Source of the DNA: a virus
Strand: one strand, 5' to 3'
IMG/VR virus record: IMGVR_UViG_3300031251_000076
Location: 1-33,463 of that record
DNA: 33,463 nucleotides
Shown here one piece after another: positions 9,955-19,007 of this stretch. The translations under genes were made by a program, and so were the position numbers. How positions within the stretch are numbered: position 1 is the stretch's first letter; each line of letters starts with the position of its first letter. The notes under the pieces are model-generated. The model had not been told where the DNA came from and made no database searches. It saw only the letters and a program-made list of their open reading frames with translations.

Positions 9955-10815
9955 ATGCCCATATCCATGTGGATTTTCATTGTCCTGGCCATCATCGCTG
10001 TCATTGGCGTGATTATCGGACTGTTCGCCCGCGATGAGGAACGTAGCGCGTGCTTTCTGGGCGCAATCGTCGTCGGCGTCATCGGCCTCGTATTCTTTAC
10101 GTTCGCCGCGCTCACTGTTGTCGGAACACGCCAGATCGGTATCGAAACGAAGTTCGGTCGCCCCACCGGCACGACGTTAACCAATGGCCTGCACTTAAAG
10201 TCGCCGCTCACCGAGGTCACCGAGATGGACGGTGCCGTGCAGATCGATCAGCACACCGGCCAGGGCCGCATCAAGGTCCGCTTGGGCAACAGCTCCACGG
10301 CGGATGCTGACGTGTCGGTGCGCTGGCAGATCAAGCCGGACGCGGCACCCGAACTGTTCGTCCAGTACAAGACGTTCGACAACGTGCGCACCAACCTGGT
10401 CACCCGGAATCTGCAGGTGGCACTCAATGAGGTGTTCGCGTCGTTCGATCCGTTGGCGCCGCAGAACCTTGACCGTTCGCCGCTGCCCGAGCTGTCGACG
10501 CAGGCGAAGAACATCCTTGCCGCCAAGGTGGGCAGCCAGGTCGAGATTCTGGACGTCGCAGTACCCACCATCGACTACGACGACGGCACCGAACAGAAGA
10601 TCAACCAACTGAACCAGGAGCGGGCCGCGACAGCTGTCGCCCAACAAGCGAAGACGACGGCCCTGGAGCAGGCGGCAGCCAATGCCAACTTGGCCGCGTC
10701 GGTTTCCCGCGACCCCAACGTCTTGGTTTCCAAGTGCTTGGACATTGCCCGCGAGAAGGGCCTCGCACTGCTGTGCTGGCCCACAACCCCTGTCCCCACC
10801 ATCCCCGTCAAGTAA
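9955..10815 (+). CDS. Band-7/SPFH (stomatin/prohibitin-like) membrane protein
   Basis: A 286-residue protein with two hydrophobic segments (about 4-25 and 32-55), then the SPFH opening VVGTRQIGIETKFGRPTGTTLTNGLHLKSPLTEV, which is the Band-7 signature. A beta-rich domain follows (VRLGNSSTADADVSVRWQI) and then a coiled C-terminus rich in alanine and glutamine (NQERAATAVAQQAKTTALEQAAANANLAAS). Bacterial relatives (HflK/HflC, stomatins) form membrane scaffolds and control FtsH protease, which in lambda affects the lysis-lysogeny decision. Such a role here is inference. A GAAGGGA site precedes the ATG, and a strong hairpin follows the stop. Confidence 0.83.
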   Translation: MPISMWIFIVLAIIAVIGVIIGLFARDEERSACFLGAIVVGVIGLVFFTFAALTVVGTRQIGIETKFGRPTGTTLTNGLHLKSPLTEVTEMDGAVQIDQHTGQGRIKVRLGNSSTADADVSVRWQIKPDAAPELFVQYKTFDNVRTNLVTRNLQVALNEVFASFDPLAPQNLDRSPLPELSTQAKNILAAKVGSQVEILDVAVPTIDYDDGTEQKINQLNQERAATAVAQQAKTTALEQAAANANLAASVSRDPNVLVSKCLDIAREKGLALLCWPTTPVPTIPVK

Positions 10816-11194: not shown

Positions 11195-11480
11195 CCATGA
11201 GATGCGTCTGCCGACGGAGGGGCGCCCTGTAGTGAGGCGGGCTGGGAATGCATCCCACCCAGGCGCGTGGTTCTATCGTGCCGTTCTGGATGACAACCCA
11301 TTCGGCCACGGGGGCATCCTCAACGACGGAATGGTGGGTCAGAGCACCACGCCAGTGTCACACCGCGATGACCGTATGGCCACCATTGACCGCCCCATGA
11401 TCTTGGTGACTCCGATGGGAAGGCTGTACCGCACCTGGTACGACACTGTCGGATGCTTCCGCGTCGAGGTGGCCGCATGA
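11187..11480 (+). CDS. Hypothetical protein, second of two tandem paralogues
   Basis: A 97-residue protein with SHEMRLPTEGRPVVR at the start, STTPVSH in the middle and TIDRPMILVTPMGRLYRT...CFRVEV near the end. These align with HEMRTPT, STDPVTH, VDRPLVFITGAGRLGR and YHRVEF of the upstream product. The pair arose by tandem duplication and then diverged strongly. It overlaps the upstream gene by eight bases and is coupled to the primase gene downstream. Confidence 0.72.
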   Translation: MPSHEMRLPTEGRPVVRRAGNASHPGAWFYRAVLDDNPFGHGGILNDGMVGQSTTPVSHRDDRMATIDRPMILVTPMGRLYRTWYDTVGCFRVEVAA

Positions 11481-12193
11481 GGCTGTACAGCACATGCCGC
11501 GCCTGCGGTGAGGCCATGTTGACCACCAGCATTGACGACACGGTGCACCCGACGTGTGAGCCGAAGCCGACAGCCGTCGACCTTCTCTGTGACGAGTTCC
11601 TGGCCGCTGTGCAGGCCGGTGACGATATTCGCGCCGACGAGCTGGCCGCGACCATCGACGCCGCCGAACGGCCCACTCTGCGCGGCTCAGCCCTGTACTA
11701 CAGCCAGGCACTCGGCTGGCCGGTGTTTCCACTCAAGGCCGGATCCAAAAATCCGGCGACGCTCAACGGCTTCAAGGATGCCACCACGAACCGCCGCCGC
11801 GTCGAGGCCTGGTGGAACGCCAACCCCAACTACAACATTGGCTTGGCGACCGGGCACGCCTTCGATGTGATCGACGTCGACCCCGGTCCGGGCGGGCGCG
11901 AATCGTTGGTGCAGCTGCAACAAGCGGAAGGCAGCTTGCCGGACGTTCACGGCTATGTGGTGACCGCAGGCAACCGCGCCGAAGGCCGACCGGCTGGCAT
12001 CCACCTGTACGTGAAGGCCACAGGGCGCGGCAACCGTGCTGGCTTCCTTCCCGGCCTGGATTACCGGGGAGCCGGAGGCTACGTGGTCGGCGCCCCATCC
12101 ACCCTCGGCGATCACCAAACATGGCAGTGGCTCATGCCGCCATCACCAGAAATCAAGGCACACAACACTGTTAGGGAGCGGAACGCAGCATGA
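11477..12193 (+). CDS. Prim-Pol domain DNA primase/polymerase
   Basis: A 238-residue protein. An N-terminal zinc ribbon (CRACGEAM...HPTCE) is followed by a bifunctional primase-polymerase domain from about residue 75: YSQALGWPVFPLKAGSKNPA, then the acidic pair in DVIDVDPGPGG, then GIHLYVKATG (the s-x-H nucleotide-binding motif) and GLDYRGAGGYVVGAPS. This is the archaeo-eukaryotic primase type. Large proteins of this kind often carry a PriCT and a helicase domain on the same chain. Here those parts are in a separate gene (15024-16697), six genes downstream. It should make primers at the phage origin. Confidence 0.85.
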   Translation: MRLYSTCRACGEAMLTTSIDDTVHPTCEPKPTAVDLLCDEFLAAVQAGDDIRADELAATIDAAERPTLRGSALYYSQALGWPVFPLKAGSKNPATLNGFKDATTNRRRVEAWWNANPNYNIGLATGHAFDVIDVDPGPGGRESLVQLQQAEGSLPDVHGYVVTAGNRAEGRPAGIHLYVKATGRGNRAGFLPGLDYRGAGGYVVGAPSTLGDHQTWQWLMPPSPEIKAHNTVRERNAA

Positions 12194-13662: not shown

Positions 13663-13768
13663 CCCACTGGCGTTCGGTGACTGCGGCGGCGTGCTCGACT
13701 GCGGGTTGCGGCCTGGCGTGAACGACCTCAAGAAGCTGATCTATCCCACAGAGGAATTGGAGCGATGA
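13655..13768 (+). CDS. 37-residue hypothetical protein
   Basis: A short frame starting eight bases before the upstream stop and ending in an ATGA overlap with the next gene. The product has DCGGVLDCGLRPGVNDLKKLIYP, two cysteines and a short helix. Exact packing between two accepted genes is the main support. Confidence 0.5.
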   Translation: MSSPLAFGDCGGVLDCGLRPGVNDLKKLIYPTEELER

Positions 13769-15027
13769 GCGCGAATCCAGAACAGAGCGTCATTGACGAA
13801 ATCGACGCCCTGGTCAATGAGCAGATGGCGGGCGGCGAGTACGCCGCCGATCGGCGCACGGAGACGATTGTCGATGACATTGACCGGTGCGCCCTGTGTC
13901 GCGGCGCGTGGCACGGCTCCCCGTGGGCTGGCGTCGACCACGACCACCTCGGCGAGTATGACCGGCACAACCATGGGCGCGCTTTGAAGTGCCCAGGCGC
14001 ATTCGCCACTGGGCCGCAACGTATCCGGTACCGCTGGCAGCATCGGCACTACTGGCCGATGCGGCGATGGATGGGGCGCGAGCATGTGGCGGCTCGGATG
14101 TTCGGCAACCTGGGTAACCCGATGAGGGAGCTTGTAGACGGCGATCCGATGCAGTGGTATCAGCGGATGCTTCGAGCAGCTCGCGACGCCATGGACTCAT
14201 TGACCGAGGGCGATCCTGCGATGCGGGAATGGCAGCGTGAGCAGCGGGCCAGATGGTTCAACGGCGAAGTGCCGAACGTGCCACCGCAGATGCAGTTTCC
14301 GCGCGCGCAGTTCGCGTACGTCGGTGAATCACAGCCCCCGCGCGGCGGCGAGGTGCGCGGACCGGGGGGAAGCGGTTCCGCCATGGCCTGGCTAGATGAG
14401 GCGTACGACCGGCTGGAGCAGCTGCGCCCCAGGCGCGGCGCCCCCTGGCTGCACCGACATCACACCGAGCCTTGGCGCATCGCCATTGGCGAAACCGGGG
14501 CGACATATCCCGGCACCACGTCCGCCCCCCTGGCGCCGATCACCTTGCCGAAGTTCTACATGGTTCCGGCCCAGGGCGGGCAGCAGTCGGTGACCCGATA
14601 CTCGCGGCGCGGCCCAGTGCTGATGCGCTACTGGGGTTCACCGCAGGCGGCGGGCACCTGGTGGGAACTGGACCCCAGCGAGGGTCCATGGACTGACGTG
14701 GAGGTCACCACCACCCAGGATGAGCCGCCGCGCCGACGTCGAGACCGGTCACTGCCACCGCTGCAACGCGTCTTCATTGAGCTGACCGCCGCCAACGGGT
14801 TGCACGACAACCCGATCGGGTTGATAGCACTCGGCGACTTCGCACCCGGCAGATCGGGCATGGTGCACCGCGCCTTTCTTAAGTCGGCTGGCGATCATCC
14901 TCCGCTGCTCTACGACGATGAACGTCTCACCAACACACGGCAGCCGACTTCGTGGCGGCGGTGCGCCACAAGCGGTGTGCATCCGGAATGCCTGGTCGAA
15001 GAGATCCGGGGGGCCGGGCACCTGTGA
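13765..15027 (+). CDS. Large hypothetical protein with N-terminal zinc cluster
   Basis: A 420-residue protein, the largest unknown of the early region. Near residue 40 it has CALCRGAWHG and VDHDHLGEYDRHNHGRALKC, a histidine- and cysteine-rich cluster that may bind zinc. The rest is arginine-, tryptophan- and proline-rich, with QPPRGGEVRGPGGSGSAMAWLDEAYDRLEQL in the middle, and shows no family I know. The stop overlaps the GTG start of the helicase gene, so the two are translationally coupled. Its place in the primase-helicase operon suggests a replication role (inference). Confidence 0.7.
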   Translation: MSANPEQSVIDEIDALVNEQMAGGEYAADRRTETIVDDIDRCALCRGAWHGSPWAGVDHDHLGEYDRHNHGRALKCPGAFATGPQRIRYRWQHRHYWPMRRWMGREHVAARMFGNLGNPMRELVDGDPMQWYQRMLRAARDAMDSLTEGDPAMREWQREQRARWFNGEVPNVPPQMQFPRAQFAYVGESQPPRGGEVRGPGGSGSAMAWLDEAYDRLEQLRPRRGAPWLHRHHTEPWRIAIGETGATYPGTTSAPLAPITLPKFYMVPAQGGQQSVTRYSRRGPVLMRYWGSPQAAGTWWELDPSEGPWTDVEVTTTQDEPPRRRRDRSLPPLQRVFIELTAANGLHDNPIGLIALGDFAPGRSGMVHRAFLKSAGDHPPLLYDDERLTNTRQPTSWRRCATSGVHPECLVEEIRGAGHL

Positions 15028-16697
15028 GCGGCGATGACCTTTTCGAGAACCTTGAGCGCCTCGGTATCGGGCTCAAACCGGAACGCAAGCCGGTGGCCCG
15101 TGTCGCGACCGCGAACCGTGACACCGCGCCCTACTACCGGGCGGCGCTGGAACAGGAGATGGTGGCGATGGCGTCCACCGGGGAGGGCAGGCGTAATGAC
15201 CAGCTGAACATTTCGGCGTTCAATCTGGGCCAGCTGGTGCCGCATGGACTCACCGAGGATGAGGTGACCGACTCGCTGGCGGCGGCGGCACGCTCGACAG
15301 CAGGCACCCCGATGACCGACAGGGAGATCGAGCGCACCATTCGCAGCGGTTTGGAGTCAGGCAAGCTGTCGCCTCGGTACGCCGAAAACACCAGCTACAC
15401 AACCACTACGACGCCGATTGACGTTTTGCCGGCCAACGGGCAGCGGTTCGATGTGCGCGACTTTGAGGGCGACTTCTGGGAGTCGCGGGCGTCGCTGAAA
15501 ACGGTGTACACAGCGGCCCTGTCCGGCATGTGTTCACCGTGGGCGGTGCTGGCGTGCTGTGCGGCACGGGCGCTGGCGCTGGTCGACCCACACATCAAGC
15601 TGCCCGCCATCATCGGCTCCAAAGGAGGCTCCCTGAACTGGTTCGCGATGCTCGCCGCTGAATCCGGGGGCGGCAAGTCGACGGCCATGGAGATCGCCGA
15701 AGAGCTGATACCGCACCAGGTGAAGACGCTGAACTTGGGCAGCGGCGAAGGCCTCATTGAAGCCTTCGGCGACCGCAACGACGACGGCACCGTCAAGGAT
15801 CCAGTGTCGGGGCACCGCTCGATCCTGTTTTCGGTCGACGAGATTGACTCGTATTCGGCGGTGGCCGGGCGCAGCGGATCGACGGTGATGCCGATTCTGC
15901 GGTCGGCGTTCACGGGCGGCTCGCTGGGCTTCGCGTATCGGAAAGGCAATCGGCTGCCGGTGCTTCCGGCGCATTCGTATCGGATGACGCTGGTGTGCGC
16001 CGCCCAGCCGGGCCGGACGCGGGCCATGTTCGCAGACGCCGATGGTGGGACGCCGCAGCGGTTTATGTGGTTTCCGGCGACCGATCCACGGATCGCGGCG
16101 ATGCGCCCCGTCTTCAACAGCTCTCTGTCGCTGCCACCGGTGACCGACTGGCAGTATCCGGCGACCCTGCGGGTGCCTTCTGAATGTGAGGGCCTGATTG
16201 TGACGACGCGGGCGTCCCAGGCGCGCGGCGAGACGGCGGCACTGAACTCACACGCCTTGTTCGCACGGGAGAAGTTCGCCTACGCGCTGGCGATCCTGGA
16301 CGGGCGTTCGGCGATGGATTCGGAGGATTGGCGGCTGTCCGGGGTTGCGGCGGCGGTGTCCGATGGGGTGCGCCAATGGGTGCTTGATCAGCTGGCGGTT
16401 TCCGAGGCCGAAGAGGCGCGCCAGAAGGGGCGCCTTGCCGGTGTGGCCCGCTCAGCTTCCGATGCCGCCAAGACGCTGCAAGACGCCGAAGACCTGGCAC
16501 GGGCGGAGGCTTTCGTGCGCGAGAAGCTGGCCGACGCCGGGCAGCGCGGCACGACGCTACGCGAGATACAGCGCGGTGGCACTAAGTCGCTACGGCACCT
16601 CTATGCCGTCACCCTGTCCCGGCTTGAGGGCGATGGCGTTGTCGCCAGAGAAGTCGACGGCAGATCAACACGCTGGACCTGGGCCGGTGAGTCATGA
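15024..16697 (+). CDS. Replicative helicase-like ATPase with PriCT-type N-terminal region
   Basis: A 557-residue protein starting at a GTG that overlaps the upstream stop. Residues about 30-115 (GRRNDQLNISAFNLGQLV, then ERTIRSGLESGKLSPR) match the helical linker seen after Prim-Pol domains in actinobacterial primase-helicases. A P-loop ATPase follows with Walker A AESGGGKST (Lys218) and Walker B ILFSVDEIDS (Asp272, Glu273). The C-terminal 100 residues are helical with a winged-helix-like end (GTTLREIQRGGTKSLRHLYAVTLSRLEGDGVVAREV). Together with the separate Prim-Pol protein it would make a split primase-helicase. The candidate origin starts 18 bases after its stop. Confidence 0.8.
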   Translation: MSGDDLFENLERLGIGLKPERKPVARVATANRDTAPYYRAALEQEMVAMASTGEGRRNDQLNISAFNLGQLVPHGLTEDEVTDSLAAAARSTAGTPMTDREIERTIRSGLESGKLSPRYAENTSYTTTTTPIDVLPANGQRFDVRDFEGDFWESRASLKTVYTAALSGMCSPWAVLACCAARALALVDPHIKLPAIIGSKGGSLNWFAMLAAESGGGKSTAMEIAEELIPHQVKTLNLGSGEGLIEAFGDRNDDGTVKDPVSGHRSILFSVDEIDSYSAVAGRSGSTVMPILRSAFTGGSLGFAYRKGNRLPVLPAHSYRMTLVCAAQPGRTRAMFADADGGTPQRFMWFPATDPRIAAMRPVFNSSLSLPPVTDWQYPATLRVPSECEGLIVTTRASQARGETAALNSHALFAREKFAYALAILDGRSAMDSEDWRLSGVAAAVSDGVRQWVLDQLAVSEAEEARQKGRLAGVARSASDAAKTLQDAEDLARAEAFVREKLADAGQRGTTLREIQRGGTKSLRHLYAVTLSRLEGDGVVAREVDGRSTRWTWAGES

Positions 16698-16714
16698 ACA
16701 GCGCGCCAGCAAAT

Positions 16715-16927
16715 GTGTCGGGCAGTGTCGGGCGCCCGACACATAGGTCTGAGTGTCGGGCAGTGTCGGGCAGCTACCGCCCGACAGTCAGAAACGTCGT
16801 TTATGCCATCTACCAGTATCTATATATACATATGCATATAGGAGGGATTCACGTACGAGGGCCGACGCCCCAGGTCGCCGAGTGTCGGGCGCAAAACAAG
16901 TGTCGGGCGCCCGACAGTGCCCGACAC
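16715..16927. repeat. Iteron cluster with AT-rich core: candidate replication origin
   Basis: Ten copies of the nonamer GTGTCGGGC. Forward: 16715-16723, 16725-16733, 16753-16761, 16763-16771, 16882-16890, 16900-16908. Reverse exact: 16734-16742, 16919-16927. Reverse with one mismatch: 16779-16787, 16909-16917. The forward pairs on the left are 10 bp apart, one helical turn. The 28-base blocks 16715-16742 and 16900-16927 are inverted copies of each other with one difference. Between them lies an AT-rich stretch (16798-16840, with TATATATACATATGCATATA at 16821-16840), striking in this GC-rich genome. Position directly after the helicase gene and the iteron/AT-rich layout suggest an origin; multi-site operator is the main alternative. 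Confidence 0.72.
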
Positions 16928-16973
16928 TTCGGCACCTCCGGCTAATCAGTTAACAACCACCAGAAGGGATGAC

Positions 16974-17429
16974 ATGACCACCACCACCAAGCCCCGGCGG
17001 AACCGCCGCAGCGCCAAGGATGCGGGCACCCGATTTGAGCGGTCAGTGGCCGACTACCTGGCCGCGACACTCGATGACCGCATAGACCGGCGAGTGAAGG
17101 CCGGAAACAAAGACTGCGGCGACATCGGAGGGGTGCGCCGCTCCCCTTGTGGCTCGCGCATCGCCATCGAATGCAAAGACACCTCCAAGATTGACCTACC
17201 GCAGTGGACTCGCGAGGCTGCGACAGAAGCGGTCAACGACGGGGCTCTGGTGGGTGTGGTGGTGCACAAGCGCCGCCTGGTTGGTGATCCTGCCCAGCAG
17301 TGGGTCTCGATGACCCTGGCCGATCTGGTGGCGATTTTGAGCGGGCATCGTCCGAGCCCCCATGTGGCTCGCACCGAGGGCAGCGCCCCGGTTGTTGAAA
17401 CTTCAAACACCGAGGCGGTGCCCGCATGA
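16974..17429 (+). CDS. Holliday junction resolvase-like protein (Hjc-type PD-(D/E)XK)
   Basis: A 151-residue protein: AKDAGTRFERSVADYLAATL (catalytic Glu in the first helix), KAGNKDCGDIGGVRRSP (Asp), RIAIECKDTSKIDL (the E-x-K motif), then LVGVVVHKRRLVGDPAQQWVSMTLADLVAIL. This matches the small archaeal-type resolvase/nuclease fold found in many mycobacteriophages. It would cut branched intermediates during replication or before packaging. I chose the ATG at 16974 because AGAAGGG lies five bases upstream. It is the first gene after the iteron locus. Confidence 0.8.
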   Translation: MTTTTKPRRNRRSAKDAGTRFERSVADYLAATLDDRIDRRVKAGNKDCGDIGGVRRSPCGSRIAIECKDTSKIDLPQWTREAATEAVNDGALVGVVVHKRRLVGDPAQQWVSMTLADLVAILSGHRPSPHVARTEGSAPVVETSNTEAVPA

Positions 17430-17926
17430 GCACGATCGAATGGTCTCGCGACGACAAGGCCGATTGGGGCACGGTTGACGGCCAGAGGCGATACGGCATC
17501 GCAGGCGGCTGCCTCTGGTTCTGTGAAGACCAAGGCGACTGGTGGTGCCTCATCGGGCTCTCGGCTGACGCTCAGACGCTCGCCGAGGCGCACTGGGCAG
17601 GCCTGCAGGACCGGAAGGTTGCCGATGCGATCAACACCGTTCGTGACGCCGCTGCTCGGCTCACCGAGTCGCCCAGCCCGATACGGCTGGAGTCCGACGA
17701 AGCGGCCAAGCTGTACGCCGCCATAGACGCCCTACCGCCGCCGCCTGTCGCCCCGCCCCCCACCCGGCGCACCCTGTTGGTCAACGGGGTGTACCTCACC
17801 GGTGATGTCCGATCGATCAGCACCCACACCCACGGCGACGGAACACAATCCATCGACATCAGCTTCGTGCCAGACAGTGCCGACGACACCGTGTGCGCCA
17901 TCGAATCCATGCGAGTCGACCGATGA
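17426..17926 (+). CDS. Hypothetical protein
   Basis: A 166-residue protein, not recognised. The N-terminal half is tryptophan-rich (STIEWSRDDKADWG, then CLWFCEDQGDWWCLIGL). A proline linker (LPPPPVAPPPTRR) leads to a probable beta-rich C-terminal domain (LLVNGVYLTGDVRSIST). It is coupled to the resolvase and the next gene by ATGA overlaps. Confidence 0.68.
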   Translation: MSTIEWSRDDKADWGTVDGQRRYGIAGGCLWFCEDQGDWWCLIGLSADAQTLAEAHWAGLQDRKVADAINTVRDAAARLTESPSPIRLESDEAAKLYAAIDALPPPPVAPPPTRRTLLVNGVYLTGDVRSISTHTHGDGTQSIDISFVPDSADDTVCAIESMRVDR

Positions 17927-18333
17927 AGGTCTACATCGTCACCACCGGCAGCTATTCGGACTACCAGATTCAACGGGTGCTCACCGACAAGGAACGGGCC
18001 GAAAAGCTTGTCGCCGCATGGAATGCCACTAGCTTTTGCGGTGGGGCCGAGGTCCAAGAGTGGGAGACAGACGAGCAGTCGGACGCCCTGCCCCGCCAGT
18101 GGGTCGAAGGTGAAGACGAACTGAGCTGCTATGAGTGGACACCCCTCGGCGACTTTGAGCAGGTCTACGACATCGTCGGCTGGACATACGAAGGCGCACA
18201 CCCGGGCAAAGCCACCGTGATCGAAGCCACCGACCGATTTGTCAAGGTGATCGGAACCGACGAAATGGCTGTCCGGAAAACCATTTACGACACCGTCACG
18301 CAGATGCGGGCACGAGCCGAAGGGATTGCATGA
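17923..18333 (+). CDS. Hypothetical phage protein (DUF7336-like start)
   Basis: A 136-residue protein starting MKVYIVTTGSYSDYQIQRVLTDKERAEKLVAAWN. This opening (a strand, a glycine turn, then a helix ending in K-L-V) recurs in many small phage proteins of unknown function, DUF7336-like as I recall. The rest is acidic with WTYEGAHPGKATVIEATDRFVKV. The start at 17923 overlaps the upstream stop. Confidence 0.68.
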   Translation: MKVYIVTTGSYSDYQIQRVLTDKERAEKLVAAWNATSFCGGAEVQEWETDEQSDALPRQWVEGEDELSCYEWTPLGDFEQVYDIVGWTYEGAHPGKATVIEATDRFVKVIGTDEMAVRKTIYDTVTQMRARAEGIA

Positions 18334-19007
18334 CCATGACCACCATCGCCAACGGTAGCGCCGTCGAACTGTGCGCCCACCCAGATTGCAAGCGCGACAA
18401 CGGCAAGCCAGCCCACACGCCGGACGGCATGTGCCAAGGCTGCCAGCGCCGCGTGGCCACTGCTCTGGAACGTGTCGTACTCGACTACGTACAGCTGCAC
18501 CGGCTCCCCGCCCCCAACAAGGGCGACAAGATGCGCGGCGCCAAAGTCAAGGACTACGGCCACCCCGCCGAATGGGCCTCGGACATGCTCACACAGATCG
18601 CCATATGCCTACGGGCAACACACGACAACCTCGCAAGCTCACTGGCCGAACAGGGCCACACGCCGCCGGGTGAGGACTATCCGAGTGAGCGTGCCGCCGT
18701 CATCGCCGCTCACGCTTATCTGTCGGTGCGCATCGACAAGATGTGCCGCCAGGACTGGGCGCCGGACATCATCGCCGAATGGCATGGCCTGCACTCGAAA
18801 GTCCGCAGCCAGCTTGGCCAAACAAGGCCGCGCATTGCCCTGCCGACGCCATGCCCCGACTGCGACATGCGGACCCTGACGCGCTACATCGACGTGCAGC
18901 GCGACTGGATTGAGTGCGGCAACTGCCAGACGCAGATCCGCAGCGAGCACTACCCGCTGTGGACATCGATCGTGCTCGAAGAGCTTGTGTCCGAAGCTCA
19001 GGGCTGA
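18330..19007 (+). CDS. Hypothetical protein with two zinc-binding ends
   Basis: A 225-residue protein. The N-terminus carries CAHPDCKRDNGKPAHTPDGMCQGCQRR and the C-terminus CPDCDMRTLTRYIDVQRDWIECGNC, each able to bind one zinc. In between is a helical region (ERAAVIAAHAYLSVRIDKM). Proteins of this design are frequent at the right end of mycobacteriophage early regions and are thought to bind DNA. It is the last gene of the rightward early run; its end overlaps the minus-strand gene by ten bases. Confidence 0.7.
   Translation: MTMTTIANGSAVELCAHPDCKRDNGKPAHTPDGMCQGCQRRVATALERVVLDYVQLHRLPAPNKGDKMRGAKVKDYGHPAEWASDMLTQIAICLRATHDNLASSLAEQGHTPPGEDYPSERAAVIAAHAYLSVRIDKMCRQDWAPDIIAEWHGLHSKVRSQLGQTRPRIALPTPCPDCDMRTLTRYIDVQRDWIECGNCQTQIRSEHYPLWTSIVLEELVSEAQG

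Follow-up and report, generated by a model that had tools for sequence, protein, structure and literature searches.

The question raised by this locus is whether a dense array of short repeats in a phage genome is the place where DNA copying starts, and which protein reads the repeats. The window, i.e. the whole stretch of DNA analysed, is a virus record of 33,463 bases, which is related to the Mycobacterium abscessus prophages prophiGD12-2, phiGD17-1/prophiGD17-1 and prophiGD05-1. The array (16715–16927) is very probably the start site of DNA copying of this mycobacterial phage, as it lies behind a predicted self-loading initiator helicase, its arms flank the AT-richest stretch and its layout recurs in dozens of relatives, although the activity itself is inferred and no replication data are available. 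The replication origin proposed in the initial annotation thus remains the best reading of these mirror-image arms, their AT-rich centre and their recurrence.

The ten nonamer copies which had been noted within 213 bases are all present, with the word (G/C)TGTCGGGC. Forward exact iterons start at 16715, 16725, 16753, 16763, 16882 and 16900, reverse exact iterons at 16734 and 16919, and reverse iterons with one mismatch (CTGTCGGGC) at 16779 and 16909. The outer 28-base blocks (16715–16742 and 16900–16927) are, as had been described, inverted copies with a single difference, each containing two direct copies 10 bases apart and one inverted copy. The observed layout is one of two mirror-image arms with four extra copies inside the outer blocks: a left canonical triad on the plus strand (16715+, 16725+, 16734−; 16715–16742), which is the layout common to relatives, an extra left triad on the same strand (16753+, 16763+ and 16779− with one mismatch; 16753–16787), an extra right iteron (16882–16890, plus strand) and a right canonical triad on the minus strand (16900+, 16909− with one mismatch, 16919−; 16900–16927), which mirrors the left one. 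The maximum count of any 8-mer on both strands within 213 bases is 10, compared with 2–5 when the whole window was dinucleotide-shuffled 100 times, and chance is excluded as the source of the array. Outside the array, the window contains only scattered single copies of the word, and neither the window nor prophiGD12-2, a complete relative searched with its own word, showed a second iteron cluster. GC skew is weak and carries no origin signal, with its cumulative maximum, not its minimum, near the site.

Between the arms lies the AT-rich core (16798–16840, no strand assigned). Its initial description as nearly all A/T is too strong, since 70% of its bases are A/T, but it is the AT-richest 43-base stretch of the 33 kb, and the inner core (16817–16840) has 20 A/T out of 24 bases. 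It contains a TATATATACATATGCATATA-like motif, which is conserved in prophages with other iteron words. The core is a probable DNA-unwinding element, where melting is inferred.

The array starts 18 bases past the stop of the helicase gene (15024–16697, plus strand) and ends before the gene of a RusA-like Holliday junction resolvase (16974–17429, plus strand; phrog_244, E 8.1e-32), in agreement with the earlier placement of the locus after a helicase gene and before a resolvase gene. The helicase has DUF3987 as its only Pfam match and also matches phrog_11515 (DNA polymerase/primase). The ORF list gives its start as 14952, from which residue numbers are counted here, while homologues begin at codon 15024 in the alignment. 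An AEP-type Prim-Pol primase/polymerase encoded upstream on the same strand (11453–12193, plus strand; Pfam PF09250, E 6.8e-34; phrog_5852) is the probable partner of the helicase, and the two are fused in one protein in several Gordonia phages and in cluster O phages. The resolvase gene is swapped for endonuclease VII in phages of another group; this alternation of the nuclease gene behind the origin (window 16974–17429; relatives L001 and L003) takes place within a larger cassette. The early region also encodes an SPFH/band-7 membrane protein (9955–10815; Pfam Band_7, E 3e-19). In relatives, an RtcB-like RNA ligase gene adjoins the replication genes (L001 11936–13132, L003 11937–13133, L004 12473–13669), and no homologue of this ligase was found in the window by tblastn.

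The repeats might belong to a small coding gene, as an ORF of 83 codons (16694–16945, plus strand) covers them. Its counterpart is annotated as a hypothetical protein in prophiGD12-2 (gene 33; L001 coordinates 16020–16271), and the window, L001 and L155 all have the frame open at the same length. However, its pN/pS of 0.85–1.22, compared with 0.11 for the helicase, and the breaks of the frame in L003, L004 and L145 leave this explanation with practically no weight, and the ORF is judged non-coding; going by these substitution ratios and frames, the M. abscessus group carries over its putative origin an ORF without sign of coding. Overlapping ORFs after the Prim-Pol gene of Tarzan, Reyja and TinyDot are possibly likewise annotated as hypothetical proteins over origins.

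Relatives of the helicase were collected from viral contigs and genomes, and 158 loci, including near-duplicates, had sufficient downstream sequence. Within a span that opens 60 bases ahead of the helicase stop and closes 450 bases past it, 80 of the 158 loci have at least six copies of a 7-mer and 95 have at least five; for control windows drawn from these loci, the corresponding counts are 4 and 31 of 670. In most positive loci the cluster starts about 0–30 bases past the helicase stop. The common layout, observed again and again, comprises two direct copies and one inverted copy, an AT core and the mirror image, and among origins with six copies, 23 of 36 have the strand pattern ++-+--. When up to 8 kb of each locus is considered, the AT-richest 30-mer falls between the arms in 60 of 76 two-armed loci, where about 1.5% per locus is expected.

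The repeat word itself changes. The iterons that accompany 87 distinct tails comprise 47 distinct 7-mers. In four prophage relatives, the intergenic layout of the window and a similar AT core motif are combined with different repeat words, such as TGTCGGCC/TGTCGGCT in L001, GGTGTCAG in L003 and GGTGGAGG in L004, and 12 further viral contigs can be assigned to the word types of these prophages. The same design occurs in more distant relatives, namely the Gordonia phages Tarzan (CGTGGACA), Reyja (CCTGGAA), BetterKatz (CCAGCAAACC) and TinyDot (CCGTGGAC) and the metagenomic phage Dulem virus 32 (CGTGGCCA). Absence of the cluster from all relatives had been named in the initial annotation as a finding that would refute an origin; the cluster is present in relatives and its layout is kept, but the nonamer word is not conserved. 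A pattern search for the iteron word in viral contigs gave many matches, which are uninformative, as even close relatives do not keep the word. About 40% of the loci have no cluster by the 7-mer count, mostly those whose helicases are about 30–35% identical to the query, and Suarez (cluster O; L138 4272–4770), with a related Prim-Pol/helicase, has no iteron cluster directly after the helicase. Many mycobacterial genomes (L235–L253 and similar loci) encode a helicase about 34% identical to the query with no downstream iteron cluster detectable, and these may use another origin design.

Natural exchanges among the relatives point to the protein that reads the word. Among M. abscessus prophages, identity of the helicase core is about 95–98%, while tail and repeats switch together; the aligned helicases of this group are near-identical up to about residue 505, and the last 75 residues vary with the iteron type. 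Between L003 and L004, most 60-base blocks are about 85–100% identical on either side but only 44–80% over the winged helix and the iterons, which are essentially the only differences over about 4 kb; farther out, the two also differ at one insertion near 17900 and at the margins of the comparison. Another pair, L001 and L003, is about 91–100% identical up to about 16450, about 40–50% identical from there and mostly more than 90% identical after about 17370, so that tail, iterons and nuclease gene are replaced behind helicase cores which are about 97% identical.

The same covariation is observed across the family. With the core controlled, iteron-word distance is correlated with tail distance (rank partial Mantel r=0.257, 0/2000 permutations, 81 distinct tails), and the core has a smaller correlation of its own (0.146, 7/2000 permutations, the same 81 tails). 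Among segments of 20 columns, the recognition helix, TKSLRHLYAVTLSRLEGDGV, is the strongest (0.269), while most core/motor segments are near zero. In a per-column test (77 distinct tails), residues 547, 546 and 545 take the top three places among 395 columns; in the window helicase these are the consecutive residues K545, S546 and L547. RD/RE at 546–547 goes with GGAC in the word (29/8 vs 7/26, Fisher p 3e-6; counts taken after thinning by core cluster). The exact p-values should not be over-read, as the permutations are only a rough control for relatedness of the core and the choice of the GGAC test was made post hoc. As the repeats vary in step with the tip of an otherwise constant helicase, the covariation indicates that this tip is the putative reader of the repeats, where binding is inferred in the absence of binding data.

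The initial annotation had listed three candidate binders, and the covariation and the natural swaps single out the helicase C-terminus. Several other DNA-binding proteins are encoded nearby, and one of them (the 13765–15027 product, the 18330–19007 zinc protein or a small HTH protein) might bind the iterons instead, which is highly unlikely. Four different iteron words occur among phages whose homologues of the 18330–19007 protein are 91–96% identical, and the 13765–15027 protein has no counterpart in L001 and L004, two iteron-bearing phages; both are rejected as candidates. Moreover, over the roughly 4 kb compared in L003 and L004, the winged helix is essentially the only part that changes along with the word, and the association peaks in its recognition helix.

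The predicted structure of the helicase accommodates such a reader. The AlphaFold model, which was built with 45 sequences, has a C-terminal winged-helix domain (residues ~515–581; 16494–16694, plus strand), predicted to bind the iterons on the basis of the fold and the covariation, with pLDDT mostly 89–97 and a loose C-terminus. Folded alone, the domain has a mean pLDDT of 90 and gives winged-helix matches at Z of about 10. Residues 545–547 form the start of the second helix of the helix-turn-helix, i.e. the recognition helix (residues 545–560 by DSSP; 16584–16631, plus strand), which is followed by a two-strand wing. The modelled core (residues 177–480) aligns with an MCM AAA+ helicase (Z 15.5, rmsd 4.3 over 258 residues, VIA-align), and in the fold search of this core the matches listed are MCM proteins, with SaPI Rep structures not among them. 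The motor is, as far as the model can tell, MCM-like AAA+ at the fold level. A search of PDB sequences with the family profile found no credible relative, and NCBIfam has no family for the helicase.

The array might alternatively be bound by the winged helix, or by a co-varying regulator, mainly for control of downstream transcription, with replication starting elsewhere. Iteron arrays often autoregulate as well, a promoter could hide in the AT-rich core and the genes on both sides of the site belong to one long run on the same strand. This role is nevertheless considered unlikely, as the upstream helicase is constant while the downstream gene varies between RusA-like resolvase and endonuclease VII, the mirror-image arms around the AT-richest stretch suit an origin better than an operator, and the putative binder is a helicase and not a regulator. 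Partition, packaging and recombination sites carry repeats too, but a site of this kind is even harder to reconcile with the locus and is barely credible, as the array directly follows a helicase of self-loading type and its repeats covary with that helicase; the terminase (20964) is some 4 kb further on, and the integrase end known from relatives is far away.

The replication origin preferred here has its closest counterpart in the rep-ori systems of SaPIs (SaPIbov1, SaPI5) and SCCmec (Cch/Cch2), in which the helicase C-terminal domain recognises iterons just downstream, binding is thought to involve two hexamers, and the AEP primase of SaPIs is separate or fused (PMC7581432). The iterons are likewise directly downstream of the initiator helicase gene here (18 bases, and similar in most closer relatives), the C-terminal domain would set iteron specificity, for which there are here only covariation and natural swaps, and the MCM-like fold is shared with SCCmec Cch. 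Unlike those systems, which have DUF927 (SaPIbov1/Cch) or Primase_Cterm/D5 (SaPI5/Cch2) helicases and belong to staphylococcal islands, this one has a DUF3987 helicase, belongs to full phages and prophages of Actinobacteria, and varies widely in iteron word and tail inside one helicase family. By this analogy, the best explanation is that the system works like SaPI/SCCmec rep-ori on another helicase family, with origin activity inferred.

The initiator of satellite phage P4, alpha, is a helicase-primase which binds iterons through a C-terminal winged helix and acts with ori and crr. The mode of binding would be shared, as far as it is inferred here, whereas the motor is MCM-like, the primase is a separate AEP Prim-Pol, and there is no second cis cluster like crr in the window or in complete prophiGD12-2. 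In lambdoid phages, the specificity domain of O and the ori iterons vary together between related phages, as tail and iterons do here; however, lambda has its iterons within the gene of the initiator O, which is not a helicase, whereas here the iterons follow a helicase gene. No RepA-type initiator of the kind used by iteron plasmids and extrachromosomal prophages was found beside the iterons, where the neighbour is the DUF3987 helicase, and ten proteins scanned gave no Rep family match. The PrimPol-PV1 supergroup shares the AEP primase, the DUF3987 ATPase and the C-terminal winged helix, which are fused in relatives; in the part of the source available, DUF3987 is a predicted helicase whose winged helix might recognise origins, and no cognate origin or iterons for the family were found in that part (PMC5862659). 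The sites and their covariation with the tail are observed here.

A mechanism can be proposed in which the two mirror-image iteron groups flank the AT-rich unwinding element as the origin of a temperate mycobacteriophage, and each group would be bound by the winged helix at the tail of the helicase whose gene immediately precedes the array. Helicase rings on the two arms would assemble face to face, melt the AT-rich core between them and self-load in opposite directions, after which the phage Prim-Pol (11453–12193) may prime synthesis; the rings and their head-to-head arrangement are borrowed from SaPI and other systems, and loading and direction are inferred. Tail and iterons would form a matched specificity cassette, exchanged or co-evolving as a unit on a conserved helicase motor. 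This reading as a whole, an origin bound and opened by its own helicase with a matched tail and iterons, is held with considerable confidence.

A 2020 study describes mycobacteriophage replication as not well characterised for lytic or extrachromosomal growth and reports no repeats at RepA prophage origins (PMC7157519). No earlier account of iterons at these actinophage helicases was found in the open-access literature, subscription papers not being covered. The comparison, on the scale of about 90 related phages, covers dozens of phages and prophages from Mycobacterium, Gordonia and other Actinobacteria, and for these it provides a predicted lytic origin, the domain predicted to read it and the residues concerned. 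As tail and iterons have been swapped together in nature, specificity can be put to a direct test, and the variety of words makes these origins, if active as inferred, candidate compatible replicons for mycobacterial genetics. Actinobacterial phages may possibly, as a tentative proposal, have a single origin architecture in common, with an iteron word that can be re-written freely, where a recognition-helix code (e.g. xRDR reading GGAC) would let tail and iterons diversify or swap as a cassette, perhaps under selection against cross-replication with co-resident prophages and satellites or for escape from origin-targeting defences.
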